From an uncultured Bellilinea sp. (GTDB lineage Bacteria; Chloroflexota; Anaerolineae; Anaerolineales; Anaerolineaceae), in contig CALHYE010000013.1 of NCBI GenBank assembly GCA_938040735.1, positions 62,001 to 126,000 of the forward strand: 64,000 bases of DNA. Direction: 5' to 3'. A program made the position numbers and the translations under genes. The notes beneath the pieces are model-generated. The model searched no databases. It was not told the origin of the DNA and saw only the letters and a list, made by a program, of their open reading frames with translations. Of this stretch, positions 49,148 through 56,217 are shown one piece after another; position 1 is the first letter of the stretch; each line of letters begins with the position of its first letter.

Positions 49148-49681
49148 TCACATTTCTTCTCGGAAAATTAACCCATATTTCTTGCGGGCGGCAAGCCATG
49201 CTTTTCGCAGCAATTCATACACCTCATGCGGATTTTTGATATTCCTCAAAACAATTTCCGAATGAGAAGGATCGGCGCCCTTAATCCGAATATCTCCGAT
49301 GTCTAAAATCCGTTCACCAACCGATTGCGCAAAATCAATATCCTGAATCCGGATTAATTCGTAATTTTCATAATCCTTTCCCAAAAGCCCTTTGACTACT
49401 TTGATCCTTTCATTCGTAATAACGTAATACTCCACCAAGGATAGTAGCGGCCTGCCTTTCCAAAGAACTTGCTCGCCGTCACCGGTTTCGGTAAGCCGCG
49501 TGAATTGATCATCCGCATCAGAACCCATCACTTCATCCATAACCCCCAGCATCTGAGCCGTGATTGCATCTATCAGTTTATTCTGATCATCGCTGGAAAG
49601 AGGGGTGAGATTGACTCCGCTTTGAGCAACTGCCTGCCAGGCGGCTGCTTTGATTTTGTTGCGCACCTGTTCTAATTCCAT
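49148..49681 (-). CDS. PH-domain-containing protein
   Basis: 177-aa protein. An N-terminal helical part (LEQVRNKIKAAAWQAV...) is followed by a bacterial PH-like domain: GEQVLWKGRPLLSLVEYYVITNERI, a KDYENYELIRIQDID strand and HSEIVLRNIKNPHEVYELL helix. No transmembrane segment. I chose ATG 49681 because AGGAGG stands 6 nt upstream; the longer frame to 49705 contains that very sequence. Function unknown. Confidence 0.82.
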   Translation of the reverse strand: MELEQVRNKIKAAAWQAVAQSGVNLTPLSSDDQNKLIDAITAQMLGVMDEVMGSDADDQFTRLTETGDGEQVLWKGRPLLSLVEYYVITNERIKVVKGLLGKDYENYELIRIQDIDFAQSVGERILDIGDIRIKGADPSHSEIVLRNIKNPHEVYELLRKAWLAARKKYGLIFREEM

Positions 49682-49751
49682 CGCTATCCTCCTCATGACA
49701 TCCAATTTTGAGTTTCTTAGAAAATTATATCTGAAAGCAAATCCATCCTGT

Positions 49752-49757
49752 TATACT
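49752..49757 (+). promoter_or_regulatory. -10 box of arfB (extended, leaderless-type)
   Basis: TGT-TATACT with 6 nt before ATG 49764. No Shine-Dalgarno. It also decides that start against in-frame codons further upstream. Confidence 0.6.
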
Positions 49758-49763
49758 TATTGT

Positions 49764-50186
49764 ATGCCCAATCAAACGCCTCAACTTCAAATTCCAGAGG
49801 ATGAAATCGAATTTGATTTTATCCGCGCATCCGGCCCGGGGGGACAAAATGTCAATAAGGTGGCTTCTGCGGTACAATTACGCTTTAACATTCAAAAATC
49901 CTCTCTCCTTCCAGAAGTCAAAGAAAGGTTGACGCGATTAGCCGGACAAAAGGTAACCGATGAAGGCATACTGATTTTAGAAGCCAAACGATACCGAACT
50001 CAAGAACAGAATCGCGCCGATGCCATTAGACGATTGAACGCATTAGTTCAACAAGCCCTGCCCGCGCCCAAACCCCGCAAACCGACTCAACCCACCATCA
50101 CTGCCCGGGCTGCCCGTCGTTCGGCAAAACAACGCCGCGGTCAGATCAAACGCTGGCGACGCTACGTTCCTCAAGATTGGGAATAA
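49764..50186 (+). CDS. arfB: Alternative ribosome-rescue factor ArfB (YaeJ-like peptidyl-tRNA hydrolase)
   Basis: 140-aa release-factor-like hydrolase that rescues stalled ribosomes. The GGQ motif is in RASGPGGQNVNKVASAVQLRF, and the C-terminal basic tail (RAARRSAKQRRGQIKRWRRY) is the part that enters the mRNA channel in this family. Starts before 49764 lack support; the TATACT box directly precedes this ATG. It is followed by dodecin. Confidence 0.94.
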   Translation: MPNQTPQLQIPEDEIEFDFIRASGPGGQNVNKVASAVQLRFNIQKSSLLPEVKERLTRLAGQKVTDEGILILEAKRYRTQEQNRADAIRRLNALVQQALPAPKPRKPTQPTITARAARRSAKQRRGQIKRWRRYVPQDWE

Positions 50187-50216
50187 TTTTTTTACAGTTC
50201 ATTTTGAGAGGATAAT

Positions 50217-50426
50217 ATGGCACAACACACCTACAAACTGATCGAAATAACCGGCACATCACCGACAAGCATTGAAGATGCTATTCAAAGCGCAGTGGCC
50301 CGCGCCGCCCAAACCATCCGCCATATGCAATGGTTGGAAGTCGTCGAAATTCGTGGTCGTATTGAGGAAGATCAAGTTAAGCAGTGGCAAGTCACCTTTA
50401 AGGTCGGCTTCACGCTGGAAGAATAA
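50217..50426 (+). CDS. Dodecin
   Basis: 69-aa flavin-binding dodecin-type protein. The sequence YKLIEITGTSPTSIEDAIQSAV and VVEIRGRIEEDQVKQWQVTFKVGF matches the family pattern of a short beta-alpha-beta-beta fold that assembles as a dodecamer. GAGAGG precedes the ATG. The downstream EamA gene is 57 bp away. Confidence 0.93.
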   Translation: MAQHTYKLIEITGTSPTSIEDAIQSAVARAAQTIRHMQWLEVVEIRGRIEEDQVKQWQVTFKVGFTLEE

Positions 50427-50483: not shown

Positions 50484-51401
50484 ATGCCGCTTACACTGAA
50501 ACCGGGTTTCAAACCTCCTCCACCGGAACGAATCAAATCGGACGCAATCCTTCTATTTGTTTCCTTTGTCTGGGGGAGTGGTTTTATTGCCCAAAGCATT
50601 GCCGCCCAAAGCATGGGGCATTTTACTTTCAACGGTGTCCGATTTTGGATTGGGACGTTTTTTCTTGCCGCCATTCTGGGTAAAAGAATTCGCCTGGAAC
50701 GCAAACATTGGAGGGGGATTTTCGCCGCTGGTGTTTTGTTGTTTACCGCCAGCACTTTTCAACAAATCGGCTTAAAAACTACCACCGCGGCTAACGCTGG
50801 CTTCCTGACCGGTCTATATGTGGTGATTATCCCCTTGTTCCTGTGGTTGTTTTGGCGCGAGGTGATTCATTGGACTACATGGGTGGCGGCTATTTTAGCC
50901 GTCATCGGCACGCTATTCCTGAGCACCGGAGGAGCCTTTAAACCTGCCCCGGGTGATTGGTTTGAGTTAGCAGGCGCATTTGTATGGGCTGGTCATGTGA
51001 TTGTGGTGGGCAGAATGGCCCGCCGCATGGATAACTTGCAATTTGCGATGGGGCAATTTGCAATCACCGCTTTCTTGAATACCATCGGAGCCGTCCTGTT
51101 TGACAGTTCAATCATTCCCAAACCCGAGGCTTGGTGGGCAGTCCTTTACTCGGCAGTGTTTCCGGTAGGCCTGGGCTTCACCTTACAGGTGGTCGGCCAA
51201 CGCAATGCCCCCACGACCGATGCTGCCATCCTTTTTAGCATGGAAGCGGTATTCGCCGCTGTTTTGGGATATTTCCTCTTGGGGGAACAATTATTCCCCC
51301 TCCAGATCTTCGGCTGTCTGCTCATTTTCAGCGCCATGCTGCTAGCCCAATTCCGCGAATTCTTACCCGCGGCAGCATCCCCAAAAAAGATCGCCGATTA
51401 A
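50484..51401 (+). CDS. EamA-family (DMT) transporter
   Basis: 305-aa integral membrane protein with about 10 transmembrane helices in two EamA repeats. LLFVSFVWGSGFIAQSIAAQ starts the first; LPVGLGFTLQ-type (VFPVGLGFTLQVVGQ) and AAVLGYFLLGEQL belong to the second. It exports or imports an unknown small metabolite. The start is after GAGG in the dodecin-linked gap. Confidence 0.9.
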   Translation: MPLTLKPGFKPPPPERIKSDAILLFVSFVWGSGFIAQSIAAQSMGHFTFNGVRFWIGTFFLAAILGKRIRLERKHWRGIFAAGVLLFTASTFQQIGLKTTTAANAGFLTGLYVVIIPLFLWLFWREVIHWTTWVAAILAVIGTLFLSTGGAFKPAPGDWFELAGAFVWAGHVIVVGRMARRMDNLQFAMGQFAITAFLNTIGAVLFDSSIIPKPEAWWAVLYSAVFPVGLGFTLQVVGQRNAPTTDAAILFSMEAVFAAVLGYFLLGEQLFPLQIFGCLLIFSAMLLAQFREFLPAAASPKKIAD

Positions 51402-51499: not shown

Positions 51500-51600
51500 T
51501 GATGAGAACAGGTTAAGAAATTCCATTCAAAACCTGTTCCATGCAACTAATCCGCTCGGGTTGCGTATATGGTACTAGAACAAGAGCACAGGAGCCGTCG

Positions 51601-52188
51601 GTGATCAACCATGAGATGGACATGCTCATCCGAGCACAAAACGGGGATGAGGAAGCTTTTACCAGCCTTGTTTTGCAATACCAAAACCCCGTCTACCATT
51701 TGTGCTACCGAATGTTGGGAAATGCGCAAGAAGCAGAGGACGCCGCTCAAGAAACTTTCTGGAGAGCCTATCAGGCCATCCGCCGCTACGATCGCAATCG
51801 TTCCTTTGCAACGTGGCTGCTCTCCATTGCTGCCCACTACTGCATTGACCAGCAACGGAAAAAACGGATCACCACCCTGGACATTGAGGATTGGATGGAG
51901 GAAGTCATTCCCGACCACACCCCCGAACCCGAAAAACAAATTCGGGAAAACGAAGAGCGACAATCCATACAATCGCTTCTATCCACCCTCAATCCCCAAG
52001 ATCGGGCTGCTGTCATCCTGCGCTACTGGTACGAGTGCTCTGAAGAGGAAATCAGTCAGGCTTTGCAACTTACCGTGAGTGCGGTAAAAAGCCGGCTGCA
52101 TCGCGCACGTCTGCGCTTGGCGCAGCAATATCAGAGCCAGCAATATGCCCTGACCGAGAGGATTCATGATGAGTCACCTGCCTTTTGA
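51601..52188 (+). CDS. RNA polymerase ECF-type sigma factor
   Basis: 195-aa sigma-70 family factor. Region 2: VYHLCYRMLGNAQEAEDAAQETFWRAYQ; region 4: LSTLNPQDRAAVILRYWYECSEEEISQAL with the helix-turn-helix SAVKSRLHRARLRL. It lacks regions 1 and 3, as ECF factors do. GTG 51601 has AGGAG 7 nt upstream and is preferred to the in-frame ATG at 51541. The anti-sigma gene overlaps by 23 bp, the standard arrangement for regulated ECF pairs. Confidence 0.93.
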   Translation: MINHEMDMLIRAQNGDEEAFTSLVLQYQNPVYHLCYRMLGNAQEAEDAAQETFWRAYQAIRRYDRNRSFATWLLSIAAHYCIDQQRKKRITTLDIEDWMEEVIPDHTPEPEKQIRENEERQSIQSLLSTLNPQDRAAVILRYWYECSEEEISQALQLTVSAVKSRLHRARLRLAQQYQSQQYALTERIHDESPAF

Positions 52189-52705
52189 AAACTGGATCTT
52201 CGACCGCGAGAAACTGACCCCTAACCAGATTTCCGAACTGGAAGCCCATCTCCAAACCTGTCAACAGTGTAGCCACCTTCAGTCTGGCTGGAGGGAAGTG
52301 GAAAAACTGCTGCAAAGCGCTCCCATCACCCCTGCACCTCCCCAGTTTATCAACCGTTTTCAGGCAAGCCTTGCCGAAAAAAAGGCTCAGCAGCAAAAAC
52401 GGCAGGTGAGAATTGCTCTGTTCAGTTTGGGCGGGGCATTCATCCTGGCAGGCATGGTGTTCATCCTTCGTCTTTTATGGACAATCCCACCTGCCCGCTT
52501 ATTATCGGACATCATCGGCTGGATTGCCCTGGCTCCTCAACGCTGGTCAGAAGTCCAGTACATTCTCTACTACTGGGGCAGTCAAATCTCACCACTCGCA
52601 CTCGTAGCGCTCGTGTTCCTCCTGGCAGGCTGGTCAATCTTGCTGCTCACACTGTGGCTCTTGACTTTTCAGCGCCTATCCCACTTAGGAGTACGAGGAC
52701 AATGA
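52166..52705 (+). CDS. Anti-sigma factor with zinc-finger and two transmembrane helices
   Basis: 179-aa membrane protein. The ELEAHLQTCQQC motif is the His-x3-Cys-x2-Cys zinc anti-sigma pattern that binds the ECF factor. Two transmembrane helices follow (ALFSLGGAFILAGMVFIL and LALVALVFLLAGWSILLL). It overlaps sigma by 23 bp and ends in ATGA with the next gene. RseP at 41299 could cut such a protein, but this is only a possibility. Confidence 0.88.
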   Translation: MMSHLPFENWIFDREKLTPNQISELEAHLQTCQQCSHLQSGWREVEKLLQSAPITPAPPQFINRFQASLAEKKAQQQKRQVRIALFSLGGAFILAGMVFILRLLWTIPPARLLSDIIGWIALAPQRWSEVQYILYYWGSQISPLALVALVFLLAGWSILLLTLWLLTFQRLSHLGVRGQ

Positions 52706-53766
52706 AAAAAATAGCGCTCTTCACCTTTCTCATCGTCGCCTTCATCCTGACTTTGGCAACCCCAGCGGTTGTAGTGGCACAAAACCCTCCCCCATCCGGA
52801 GAACAATTCAACGGTGACCAGCTGATTTTCGGTGAAAATTATATTTTACGCGCATCCCAAACCCTGAACGGCTCGCTGGTTGTTTTTGGCGGTAATGCAG
52901 AGATTGAAAATGGCGCTACCGTCAATGGCGAGATTGTTATTTTTGGGGGCATACTTCAAGTAAAAGGCCGAATCAACGGCGATATCAGCGCAATCGGCAG
53001 TAATGTCAATCTCGACGACACTTCCTATGTTCACGGTAATGTCCAGATCATCGGAGGCTCCGTCAGTCAGGCTGAAGGGTCAACCGTTACTGGCAGTATC
53101 AATCGGCTAAACCCGCAAACTTTGATGTTTAACTTTGATCGTTTCGATTTCTCTCCCCCGGGCGTTGATTCCCCCCTGCGTCTCTTGACTTCATGGATGA
53201 GAGATGTTTTGGCTAACATCCTTCGCATACTGGCTATGGCGGTTTTGGCAGTGGTCGTTGCGCTGTTGCTGCCCCGTCCGCTGCGAGTAATCGGCAACAC
53301 AATTTCCGACCAAACCCTGTTGAGCGGCGGCATCGGCCTGCTCACCATGGTTGTAGCGCCCTTTGTCCTGATCGTGTTGATCATCACGATCCTGTTGATT
53401 CCTGTGGCTTTGATCGCCATGCTGGTTCTGGCGATTGCTGTATTGATTGGCTGGATCGCGGTGGGTTTTCAAATTGGTGAACGAATTGCCAGCATGTTGA
53501 AGACTCAATGGGTAGAGGCAGTTTCTGCCGGTATTGGCACATTGATCCTGGGATTGATCGTCTGGCTGTTGGGTTATTTGTTCTGCCTGGGTGGTTTAAT
53601 GTCCTTGCTGGCGGCCAGCGTTGGCCTGGGCAGCATCATCCTCACTCAATTTGGCAGCAAACCGTATCCGGCTGCCCCGGCAGTGGTCTATGTTCCAACC
53701 CCCACCCCGCCGGCTGCCTCATCAACTTCATCGGAAGAATTCCCAACAACCCGGGAAGAAAACTAA
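52702..53766 (+). CDS. Exported bactofilin-like/polymer-forming protein with membrane domain
   Basis: 354-aa protein. Start ATG 52702 overlaps the anti-sigma stop (ATGA). A signal peptide (ALFTFLIVAFILTLATPAVVVA) is followed by a right-handed beta-helix like bactofilins (LNGSLVVFGGNAEIENGATVNGE, IGGSVSQAEGSTVTGS), then several hydrophobic helices and a Pro/Ser/Thr-rich tail. Other in-frame starts upstream (52477) are inside the anti-sigma gene. Its presence behind sigma/anti-sigma suggests it is a regulon member. Confidence 0.8.
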   Translation: MKKIALFTFLIVAFILTLATPAVVVAQNPPPSGEQFNGDQLIFGENYILRASQTLNGSLVVFGGNAEIENGATVNGEIVIFGGILQVKGRINGDISAIGSNVNLDDTSYVHGNVQIIGGSVSQAEGSTVTGSINRLNPQTLMFNFDRFDFSPPGVDSPLRLLTSWMRDVLANILRILAMAVLAVVVALLLPRPLRVIGNTISDQTLLSGGIGLLTMVVAPFVLIVLIITILLIPVALIAMLVLAIAVLIGWIAVGFQIGERIASMLKTQWVEAVSAGIGTLILGLIVWLLGYLFCLGGLMSLLAASVGLGSIILTQFGSKPYPAAPAVVYVPTPTPPAASSTSSEEFPTTREEN

Positions 53767-53784
53767 GTGGATCAAGAGCCTGTT

Positions 53785-54645
53785 ATGAAAATCCAAAATA
53801 AATACCTCGCAGTTTTACCCGTATTTGCACTGCTGGTCAGTTCGCTGGCATGTTCCTTTAGCGTCAATCTGCCGCAGGCAAAAACGGGCTCAACCCAAAC
53901 CTTCATCCTTAGCGAAGCCCTTCCCGAAGACTCCCAAACCGCAAAAATTTCCATCGAAATGGGAGCCGGCGAACTGGATATACAAGGCGGCAGCCCAATG
54001 TTGATTGAAGGTGAAATCCAATACAATATCATGGAATGGAAACCGGAAATCATTCGCGATGGACAAAACCTGCTCATCCGCCAGGGACGCAAAGAAAACC
54101 TGCGCATTCCTGCAAGGGATGTGGTCAATCGCTGGCAGTTAAAACTGGGCAGCGCCCCCATCGCTTTGGATATCGCTGCCGGCGCTTACAAAGGCACTCT
54201 CGATTTGAGCGGGGTTGCCCTTACCCGCCTGAGCATTCAAGACGGAGCCAGTCAGTCAGAGGTACGCTTTGATCAGCCTAACCCCGTTCTGATGGAAAGC
54301 CTCCGTTACCGAACCGGCGCATCGGAAGTTTCGTTGGTCGGCTTAGGAAATGCCAGCCCGGCCTTTCTGAATTTTGAAGGTGGAACTGGCTCTTACACCC
54401 TTGACTTTTCCGGCAGGCTGCAGCAAGACCTGCAAGCCAGCATCACCGCGGGGGTGAGCAGCCTGAAAATTGTGATTCCAGCCGGCACCCCAGCGCGGAT
54501 TGTCATCAGCGGCGGCTTGAACAATGTTCAACCGCGTGGAACCTGGCGCATCTCCAATAATGTCTATGAAACAGAGGGAGATGGTCCGAAAATTGAGATC
54601 AACCTCAATATGGGCGTAGGTAATCTGGAATTAATTACCCAATAA
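53785..54645 (+). CDS. Toast-rack-type lipoprotein
   Basis: 286-aa lipoprotein. The signal ends LLVSSLAC with the lipobox Cys. The mature part is beta-rich (ISIEMGAGELDIQGGSPMLIEGE, LSGVALTRLSIQDGASQSEVRF, LDFSGRLQQDLQASITAGVSSL), matching the toast-rack / DUF2154-like domain found in cell-envelope stress proteins. ATG 53785 is preferred to GTG 53767. Last gene of the sigma operon; the convergent gene is 2 bp past its stop. Confidence 0.8.
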   Translation: MKIQNKYLAVLPVFALLVSSLACSFSVNLPQAKTGSTQTFILSEALPEDSQTAKISIEMGAGELDIQGGSPMLIEGEIQYNIMEWKPEIIRDGQNLLIRQGRKENLRIPARDVVNRWQLKLGSAPIALDIAAGAYKGTLDLSGVALTRLSIQDGASQSEVRFDQPNPVLMESLRYRTGASEVSLVGLGNASPAFLNFEGGTGSYTLDFSGRLQQDLQASITAGVSSLKIVIPAGTPARIVISGGLNNVQPRGTWRISNNVYETEGDGPKIEINLNMGVGNLELITQ

Positions 54646-54647
54646 CC

Positions 54648-55568
54648 TTAACGGCAGCCATCTACCCCAAAGATATACAGATTTTCAGCAGTTCGCACTG
54701 CGATGAACTGCCCGTCAGCCGACCATTTGGACTCGGCGACGGGCAAGGTTTCCATCGGCAAAGCGAACTTGGTGTTGGCTGTCAGATCGCCAATCCAGGC
54801 AACATTCGTCCGATCCGTGAAGAACACCCGCCGCGCATCCGGAGACCAGTTCGCATTTCGCCAGTTGCGGTTGGGCACCACACCGGGCTGGTTGAGGACG
54901 ATTTGCAGACTGGTATCCTGTCCGGGTCGCGATTCCTCCAAAACAGTCTTCACCCCGCTGATCAGATTATGTTCCACATAGCGCACACAATCTACTCCGC
55001 AGCTTTCAGCCACCTGAAGAATTTGTTCCGACCGCCAGCCAACGATTCCTTTCTGACTGGAAAATTCATCCGTCACGGCCACATCATACAAATCCTGTGC
55101 TCTCCCATCCTGCAGGGAATACACTCCGATGGAATACTGCGCCTCGGCCGGTCGGAGAATGATGAACGCAATCCGCTCCCCAGAGGGCGACCAGGTCAAA
55201 TCGCCGGCAACCCGAATATCTTTGGTTCGTTGAGTTTCTCCGGTGAATACATCTAAAATGACCAAATCTCCCTGATACCAGCCCCAACTATCGTTGACCG
55301 GCGTAATTAAGGCAAGCCGATTGGAGTCCTTTGACCAGGCTAACATGTCTCCCATCAACCGGTCAGTTTGGATAACGATCCTTTGATGCAACAGACATGC
55401 CCGACCGGCGACCACCCTCAGACCATCATTGGTCAGGTCGGCAGCCGGAATCGCTGTGGGGGTACTTTCCATCATCTGTTCGTCCCCGGACAGCGAGGTG
55501 CAAGCTGTTAACACCCACACCAGAATACCCAAAAGGACGCTTTTGCCTAAACCAGTTCGCCTGTTCAT
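54648..55568 (-). CDS. Lipoprotein with WD40/TolB-like beta-propeller
   Basis: 306-aa lipoprotein with lipobox VLTAC after a hydrophobic signal. Repeated motifs DLTWSPSGERIAF, NANWSPDARRVFFT and ESKWSADGQFIAV match PD40/WD40-like beta-propeller blades. It probably senses or binds an envelope partner. The start 55568 is 7 nt after the nadD stop; an in-frame ATG at 55589 overlaps nadD. It converges on the toast-rack gene. Confidence 0.82.
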   Translation of the reverse strand: MNRRTGLGKSVLLGILVWVLTACTSLSGDEQMMESTPTAIPAADLTNDGLRVVAGRACLLHQRIVIQTDRLMGDMLAWSKDSNRLALITPVNDSWGWYQGDLVILDVFTGETQRTKDIRVAGDLTWSPSGERIAFIILRPAEAQYSIGVYSLQDGRAQDLYDVAVTDEFSSQKGIVGWRSEQILQVAESCGVDCVRYVEHNLISGVKTVLEESRPGQDTSLQIVLNQPGVVPNRNWRNANWSPDARRVFFTDRTNVAWIGDLTANTKFALPMETLPVAESKWSADGQFIAVRTAENLYIFGVDGCR

Positions 55569-55575
55569 TGAATAT

Positions 55576-56217
55576 TTACGGATTGGCATTCCTCATCATC
55601 GAAGAAGAAGGCAACCGATAGATGCCCAATTCCTCAATAAGCCGATAAACGGCGGGATGAACGTAATAACGATACGCGCGGCCTTCCGCTACCCGCTGAC
55701 GAATTTGGCGCGCCGATATTTCTAATAAGGGGGCTTCAATAAAACAAATTTTAGCCGTGAGACCGGGAATTTTTTGCTCCAACTCCCTCAAATCCACCTG
55801 ATCTCCCGGACGCCGCATGACCCCCAACCCATCAATCAGTTCAATCAGCCGCTGGGGGTGATACCAGGCCGGCAAATCATGCAGAGAATCACCGCCAATC
55901 AGGTAGTAGATCTCTGCTGAGGGGTACTGATCCTGCAAGATTTTCACAGTGTCCACTGCGTAGTGCGGGCCGGGGCGATCCATATCTACCCGGCAAAGTT
56001 CAAAAGAAGGGTTTTCACCAATTGCTGCCAGCAATAACTGCAATCGAACCGTAAGCGGGGAAATGGTTTGATCCAATTTATGAGGCGGGTCAGGAGTCAA
56101 TACCCACAACAGGCGGTCCAGTCGCAGTTGATCCTGTGCCTCGGCAGCCAGAATGAGGTGGCCGACATGCGGTGGATCAAACGTGCCGCCAAATACCCCG
56201 ATTCGCAGCGTCTTCAT
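55576..56217 (-). CDS. nadD: Nicotinate-nucleotide adenylyltransferase NadD
   Basis: 213-aa enzyme that adenylylates NaMN to NaAD in NAD synthesis. The nucleotidyltransferase start reads GVFGGTFDPPHVGHLILA, and the C-terminal motif is ISARQIRQRVAEG. The ATG at 56217 overlaps the obgE stop as ATGA, favouring it over 56226. The obgE-nadD pairing is common in bacteria. Confidence 0.95.
   Translation of the reverse strand: MKTLRIGVFGGTFDPPHVGHLILAAEAQDQLRLDRLLWVLTPDPPHKLDQTISPLTVRLQLLLAAIGENPSFELCRVDMDRPGPHYAVDTVKILQDQYPSAEIYYLIGGDSLHDLPAWYHPQRLIELIDGLGVMRRPGDQVDLRELEQKIPGLTAKICFIEAPLLEISARQIRQRVAEGRAYRYYVHPAVYRLIEELGIYRLPSSSMMRNANP

Follow-up and report, generated by a model that had tools for sequence, protein, structure and literature searches.

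The locus discussed here, a run of four genes at positions 51601 to 54645 (+ strand) of the window (i.e., the whole stretch of 64,000 nucleotides (nt) analysed, from an uncultured Bellilinea sp. of the Anaerolineaceae, Chloroflexota), has its closest described counterpart in the SigW/RsiW pair of Bacillus subtilis, where a zinc anti-sigma factor is encoded beside an extracytoplasmic function (ECF) sigma factor with an autoregulated promoter. The SigW consensus is TGAAAC...CGTA, RsiW has one membrane segment, and YvlD is a member of the phage-holin-4 family. The regulon table of SigW in PMC3498285 includes yvlABCD, pspA-ydjGHI and yuaFGI. In the passages that deal with the products of these genes, YvlB is given as a toast-rack domain protein (DUF4097), YvlC as a homolog of PspC and YdjI as a band-7 protein (PMC9239133), the last being needed to bring PspA to the membrane (PMC8581546); B. 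subtilis LiaF is placed in the lia operon, controlled by LiaRS (PMC11237479).

Two other described groups bear on the locus. Bactofilins (PF04519) are right-handed beta-helix proteins, and the relevant part of an eLife study states that the vast majority of them have no transmembrane helices, N-terminal ones occurring in about 3.2% (PMC12448750). For the phage-shock/Lia network, the part of PMC11237479 on gene contexts notes Toastrack contexts with an operon-linked sigma factor; the word ‘bactofilin’ does not occur in the main texts of PMC11237479 and PMC9239133. In the literature on bactofilins with ECF/anti-sigma factors, Psp or Chloroflexi we found no title or abstract describing a system of the kind reported below, for which the ECF re-classification (10.1093/nar/gkaa1229) may hold a group number.

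We read the locus, with a probability of roughly 0.78, as a SigW/RsiW-type envelope-stress circuit of the Chloroflexota with a built-in exported component of bactofilin fold. The genes, the conservation of the operon, the promoter motif, its placement before certain target families and the predicted fold were all computed, and it is because of these target families that the circuit is labelled ‘envelope stress’. In such a circuit the RsiW-like anti-sigma factor would hold the sigma factor at the membrane until the envelope is disturbed and the anti-sigma factor inactivated; we infer both this inducing signal and the regulated proteolysis that would follow it, the latter by analogy. The freed sigma factor would then bind RNA polymerase and read promoters of the form TGCAAC-N16/17-CGTATA. 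Expression of its own operon would thereby rise, with the exported membrane protein of bactofilin fold and, in the present case, a toast-rack lipoprotein among the products, and so would that of scattered membrane-protection genes (pspC, liaF-like, toast-rack, SPFH operon, yvlD-like, yccF-like and others).

The operon and its regulators

The sequence-only reading had described four overlapping or abutting genes, for an ECF sigma factor, a zinc anti-sigma factor, an exported beta-helix protein and a toast-rack protein, and all four were borne out at their positions by coordinates, Pfam and a predicted model. The features are as follows.

51542..51569, + strand: putative ECF-type operon promoter TGCAAC-N16-CGTATA (exact pattern match)
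51590..51594, + strand: AGGAG, probable ribosome-binding site of the sigma gene (judged from the sequence)
51601..52188, + strand: ECF sigma factor, SigW-like, 195 amino acids (aa), GTG start (Pfam, NCBIfam, alignment profile)
52166..52705, + strand: anti-sigma factor, RsiW-like zinc domain and two membrane helices, 179 aa (motif, profile, hydropathy)
52702..53766, + strand: exported protein of predicted bactofilin fold with C-terminal membrane domain, 354 aa (predicted model, Pfam matches of relatives)
53785..54645, + strand: toast-rack lipoprotein, 286 aa, accessory member (PF17115, 4qrk, lipobox)

The sigma and anti-sigma genes overlap by 23 nt and the anti-sigma and beta-helix genes by 4 nt, and a gap of 18 nt separates the beta-helix gene from the toast-rack gene. 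The sigma gene is taken to start at GTG 51601, because the ATG at 51541, which opens a longer open reading frame (ORF) and was rejected as the start, falls upstream of the promoter at 51542-51569.

The sigma protein matches Sigma70_r2 (2.1e-20) and Sigma70_r4_2 (5.3e-17) in Pfam, and the alignment profile of its family finds SigW (5wuq) first at 1.1e-49, far ahead of the second match at 3.4e-33. The nearest NCBIfam model is likewise that of SigW, matched by 28/28 members of the sigma family; since the 148 bits of the window protein do not reach the curated equivalog cut-off of 209, we call it SigW-like and do not file it as SigW. Its partner carries the zinc motif HLQTCQQC and matches Pfam zf-HC2 at no better than E = 0.023 (23 of 35 aligned members do so at E <= 0.01), the pattern HxxxCxxC being present in 56 of 65 relatives and missing from the other 9. 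The top match of the anti-sigma alignment profile is RsiW, at 2.2e-5, and SigW and RsiW are the nearest solved structures for the two proteins. Unlike RsiW, the window anti-sigma factor has two membrane segments (hydrophobic residues 83-101 and 144-162), with a short stretch (residues about 102-143) between them; across the two families, anti-sigma and beta-helix, the counts of hydrophobic segments were noisy, and no helix numbers for the relatives could be taken from them. In several families a second, related ECF sigma gene lies about 0.1-1.7 kb past the operon, on the same strand in seven loci (L047, L055, L056, L060, L061, L069 and L081) and on the opposite strand in five (L032, L049, L062, L066 and L068).

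Conservation of the gene order

Relatives of the beta-helix protein occur in 129 of the 151 genomes of the window's order; at the level of the phylum, a profile search finds them in 140 of 301 genomes. We took as order-level loci the 70 best-scoring places of the beta-helix search among the 151 genomes. The order sigma, anti-sigma, beta-helix is found in 65 of them by a strict test and in 67 once two more (L018 and L061) are added on reading; of the other three, two (L015 and L025) run into a contig end and one (L036) truly has neither regulator. The recurrence of the gene order in 65 of the 70 loci excludes a chance arrangement. The same trio of genes is found side by side outside the order as well (L243-L245, L247-L249), and the operon and its motif are present in the cultured Levilinea saccharolytica KIBI-1 (L280). 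From a search starting with the sigma factor came 80 named loci, whose record titles are all of Chloroflexota type and which partly overlap the first set in species; 68 of them have the beta-helix gene after the sigma gene. In three of the remaining 12 (L300, L302, L308) the sequence stops no more than 800 nt from the sigma gene, and the nine real absences are among the less similar sigma factors.

Sigma factor, anti-sigma factor and beta-helix protein are thus a three-gene core, to which the toast-rack gene is accessory. That the four genes form one module, as the sequence-only reading had it, holds for this core (67/70 loci) and fails for the fourth gene, which is found in 7 of the 70 order-level loci and 14 of the 80 named ones, mostly close relatives of the window; we therefore rejected a single canonical four-gene module. 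The window's toast-rack protein itself is a clear member of its family, matching Toast_rack_N (PF17115) at 3.2e-15 (56.6 bits, cut-off 22) and the structure 4qrk at 4.9e-12. A lipobox pattern is found in 25 of 27 toast-rack rows and its cysteine, as read, in all 27, some rows being the same gene twice. The gene's position varies: in one locus (L232) it lies between the anti-sigma and beta-helix genes, and in another (L187) it has no sigma gene in the fetched stretch, yet stands behind the same promoter signal. As a predicted lipoprotein it would lie outside the membrane, which differs from the Toastrack domain as argued for in the relevant part of PMC11237479, where it is intracellular; PMC9239133, in its passage on LiaG, calls that protein's domain extracellular.

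The predicted promoter and the factor likely to read it

A blind two-part word search upstream of the sigma gene turned up GCAAC-N16-CGTA in 44 of 61 relatives; the most that shuffled sequences gave was 5. With a refined weight matrix, a site above 10 bits was found in 54 of the 61 upstream regions as opposed to 0.16% of 610 shuffled ones, and six of the other seven have the same boxes, by reading, at the N17 spacing. The window's TGCAAC-N16-CGTATA, at 51542-51569, has no mismatch and is the sole exact match within the window. Across the 151 genomes of the order there are 154 exact sites versus 37 for the reversed pattern, and, with N17 allowed, 140 versus 15 in the 41 genomes of the family. 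Shuffles and reversed pattern together led us to reject the motif as a chance word. The sigma promoter that the sequence-only reading expected upstream of the operon and elsewhere does therefore occur, before the operon and before scattered membrane-protein genes. Because a sigma-type promoter precedes the operon, the sigma factor very probably drives its own operon, as SigW does, from a promoter known here as sequence only; the AAC and CGTA boxes are shared with SigW promoters, and the -35 box TGCAAC is different.

We further infer that this sigma factor is the one reading TGCAAC/CGTATA sites. An exact site is present in 63 of the 129 genomes of the order with the beta-helix gene versus 1 of the 22 without it (Fisher test, 3.9e-5, uncorrected for kinship), and a site is present in 56 of 79 named loci. 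Within the family, a clear sigma ortholog (E below 1e-48) was found in 38 of 41 genomes and a site likewise in 38 of 41, the two sets being different; one genome (G073) has neither. Several results weigh against the pairing. The co-occurrence statistic, as said, takes no account of kinship; two genomes (G454, G457) have one exact site each and no clear ortholog, and two others (G113, G451) an ortholog and no exact site; the strict pattern is missing in 23 of the 79 named loci, some of them close relatives; and the motif could also be shared by further ECF factors of these genomes, two more ECF matches being present in the window's own, of which the listed one is 31% identical. It could be that a paralogous ECF factor reads the motif and that the sigma gene of the operon is merely one of its targets. 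In favour of this, nearly every searched genome of the family has further ECF factors, and a second related sigma gene lies near some loci. It is improbable all the same, given that this sigma gene is accompanied by the motif throughout the order and in the named loci, and that no listed paralog exceeds about 42% identity, save for a close copy in one genome (G460, 57%).

The predicted regulon

We inspected 60 of the 154 exact sites, hand-picked mostly from genomes with several sites and with operon sites excluded, leaving 94 uninspected; two of the 60 (L149, L180) belong to sigma genes on contigs that end soon after and are probably the operon itself. Nine of the 60 lie inside long ORFs, compared to 25 of 30 control sites. 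The gene behind each site was picked automatically as the longest ORF, and the target groups were named from one or two members each. LiaF-like membrane proteins stand behind seven inspected sites, and PspC behind five, plus three (L131, L150, L188) where the automatic pick overlooked pspC and reading recovered it. A second exported bactofilin-like membrane family, of about 440 aa, is behind six (L155, L168, L170, L173, L174, L177); its member in L168 matches Pfam Bactofilin at 3.7e-5, below that family's cut-off. Three sites each precede DUF2085 proteins, DUF2807 toast-rack lipoproteins, other toast-rack proteins, and a Pfam-unmatched coil protein followed by an SPFH protein, and two each precede YvlD-like phage-holin-4 proteins, YccF and HlyD-type proteins, a CAAX-type protease (L145) being a further predicted target. 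The target families were found in the flanks of just one of 30 control loci (L359).

Nineteen listed sites precede a same-strand PspC domain at a distance of no more than 150 bp. The association also holds when approached from the target. In a test starting from PspC, a site of more than 10 bits lies no further than 250 bp away in 11 of 30 loci and in 0 of 150 shuffles, and in one starting from YvlD-like genes, for which no separate shuffles were made, the count is 13 of 30. In the window's own genome, which is 77% complete, an N17 site precedes a coil-SPFH operon and is conserved in the sister species (L399, L406), where further sites stand before pspC-liaF (L190, in the N17 form), before a LiaF-like gene (L407) and before a YccF-like gene (L099, so labelled by eye, Pfam giving no match). 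Two species of the genus, the window's own among them (L092, L093), share a conserved N16 site with an identical 26-base promoter core ahead of a gene for an exported protein of about 390 aa with no Pfam match. Beside that gene lies a divergent gene that by eye is alpha-amylase-like.

Taken together, the predicted targets are mostly envelope and membrane proteins and not the unrelated genes that would speak against an envelope-stress role, in a regulon that is predicted, not measured. The nine inspected sites within genes must be counted against it, as must several downstream genes not obviously related to the envelope (e.g., phytoene-synthase-like in L154 and flavodoxin-like in L091, both by eye, and an ABC ATPase in L157). 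The sequence-only reading had supposed an envelope-stress system in which the sigma factor drives its own structural output, and the promoter before its own operon and the envelope targets agree with this, but the predicted output is wider than the operon.

The toast-rack, PspC, YvlD-like and SPFH families recall yvlABCD and ydjI of the SigW regulon, whereas the LiaF-like genes are an addition to it. PspC, LiaF-type membrane domains, Toastrack and SPFH are likewise shared with the phage-shock/Lia network, with the difference that here the set is predicted under a SigW-like factor encoded in a separate operon. These same families are what chiefly speaks against the sigma factor being a morphogenesis or surface-attachment switch that controls the building of a surface scaffold and no stress response, as PspC, LiaF/toast-rack, SPFH and YvlD-like proteins belong to the membrane-stress set of B. 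subtilis. The bactofilin fold and the several bactofilin-like targets would suit a switch of that kind; even so, we hold it to be rather implausible. If the envelope-stress circuit is real, the exact promoter sites predict such a regulon for the phylum Chloroflexota, whose cell biology has received little study, and suggest that an ECF sigma factor is coupled to the Psp/toast-rack/SPFH/YvlD network in the SigW manner outside Firmicutes too.

In five loci (L399, L406, L153, L169, L183) a coil-like protein of about 175 aa with no Pfam match is encoded directly before an SPFH (Band_7_1) gene, behind TGCAAC/CGTATA. It is possible that this protein is a partner in the PspA network.

The predicted exported bactofilin-fold protein

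The third gene of the core is what SigW/RsiW does not have. In its predicted model (m1b82616f5b04, mean predicted local distance difference test score 85.9) a beta-helix at residues 40-136 is followed by helices at 158-316, and VIA-align puts the Thermus bactofilin 6rib first (Z 15.9, root mean square deviation 1.3 over 94 residues) and BacA second (13.3). Searches of other kinds gave less: Foldseek with the whole model against the PDB found no match at E <= 0.001, its lowest-E rows being unrelated SV2A chains, a sequence profile search of the PDB returned weak matches only (including Bactofilin A at 0.91), and Pfam Bactofilin (PF04519) has no match in the window protein at E <= 1, although 24 of 52 aligned members of the beta-helix family match it at E <= 0.01. 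It is because of the VIA-align result and these Pfam matches of relatives that we speak of a bactofilin fold. None of the searches put a name to the membrane domain, at which no separate search was aimed.

The family has a hydrophobic N-terminus with the near-invariant P and A of a signal-peptidase-like site. On average, the tail and the loops that follow membrane helices one and three carry a net positive charge, a weak sign that fits a beta-helix outside and a tail inside. The predicted arrangement is a bactofilin fold outside the cytoplasmic membrane, tied to it by about five helices. The fold appears to be that of a bactofilin; the location and the membrane domain, with a signal peptide and several helices, do not, and as the protein is predicted to be extracytoplasmic we do not file it as a classical bactofilin. 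The fusion of beta-helix and membrane helices, which the sequence-only reading thought unusual, is so in comparison to textbook bactofilins only, being common in the order and the phylum, as the counts of relatives given above make clear. On this prediction, a bactofilin fold on the outer side of the membrane would be a regular component of a sigma-factor operon.

The most likely role of the protein is that of a surface scaffold at the membrane, where it may conceivably polymerise. It could also belong to the sensing side, binding the anti-sigma factor through the membrane and releasing it when a surface polymer or the envelope is disturbed, in parallel to RseB, the third regulatory component for RpoE. 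Of all the targets, only this protein keeps its place in the sigma operon, its gene following straight after that for the anti-sigma factor in nearly all relatives, others being scattered, and the anti-sigma factor of the window has no obvious sensor domain of its own in the short stretch between its membrane segments. A sensor is on this account a possibility, if a doubtful one; the second bactofilin-like family, on the other hand, is a plain scattered target, as befits an effector, and because of this we favour the effector over the sensor for the beta-helix protein as well. It is somewhat less likely still that an extracytoplasmic bactofilin-fold protein is a full third regulatory component of the ECF switch, whose assembly at the surface would tell the anti-sigma factor whether the membrane is intact. 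If it were, the Psp/Lia regulon would have a mechanical or assembly-state sensor conserved through much of the Chloroflexota.

Neighbouring genes

Upstream of the operon lies an EamA-type transporter gene (50484-51401, Pfam), and downstream of the toast-rack gene a convergent gene on the other strand ends at 54648, so that the four-gene unit is closed. The convergent gene (54648-55589, - strand), 3 bases past the operon end, encodes, to judge by weak Pfam matches, an exported TolB/PD40-like beta-propeller protein. Before the transporter gene, at 49148-50426, are three genes, all assigned by eye and ordinary in character: one is small, conserved and of unknown kind, one ArfB-like (peptide release) and one dodecin-like.

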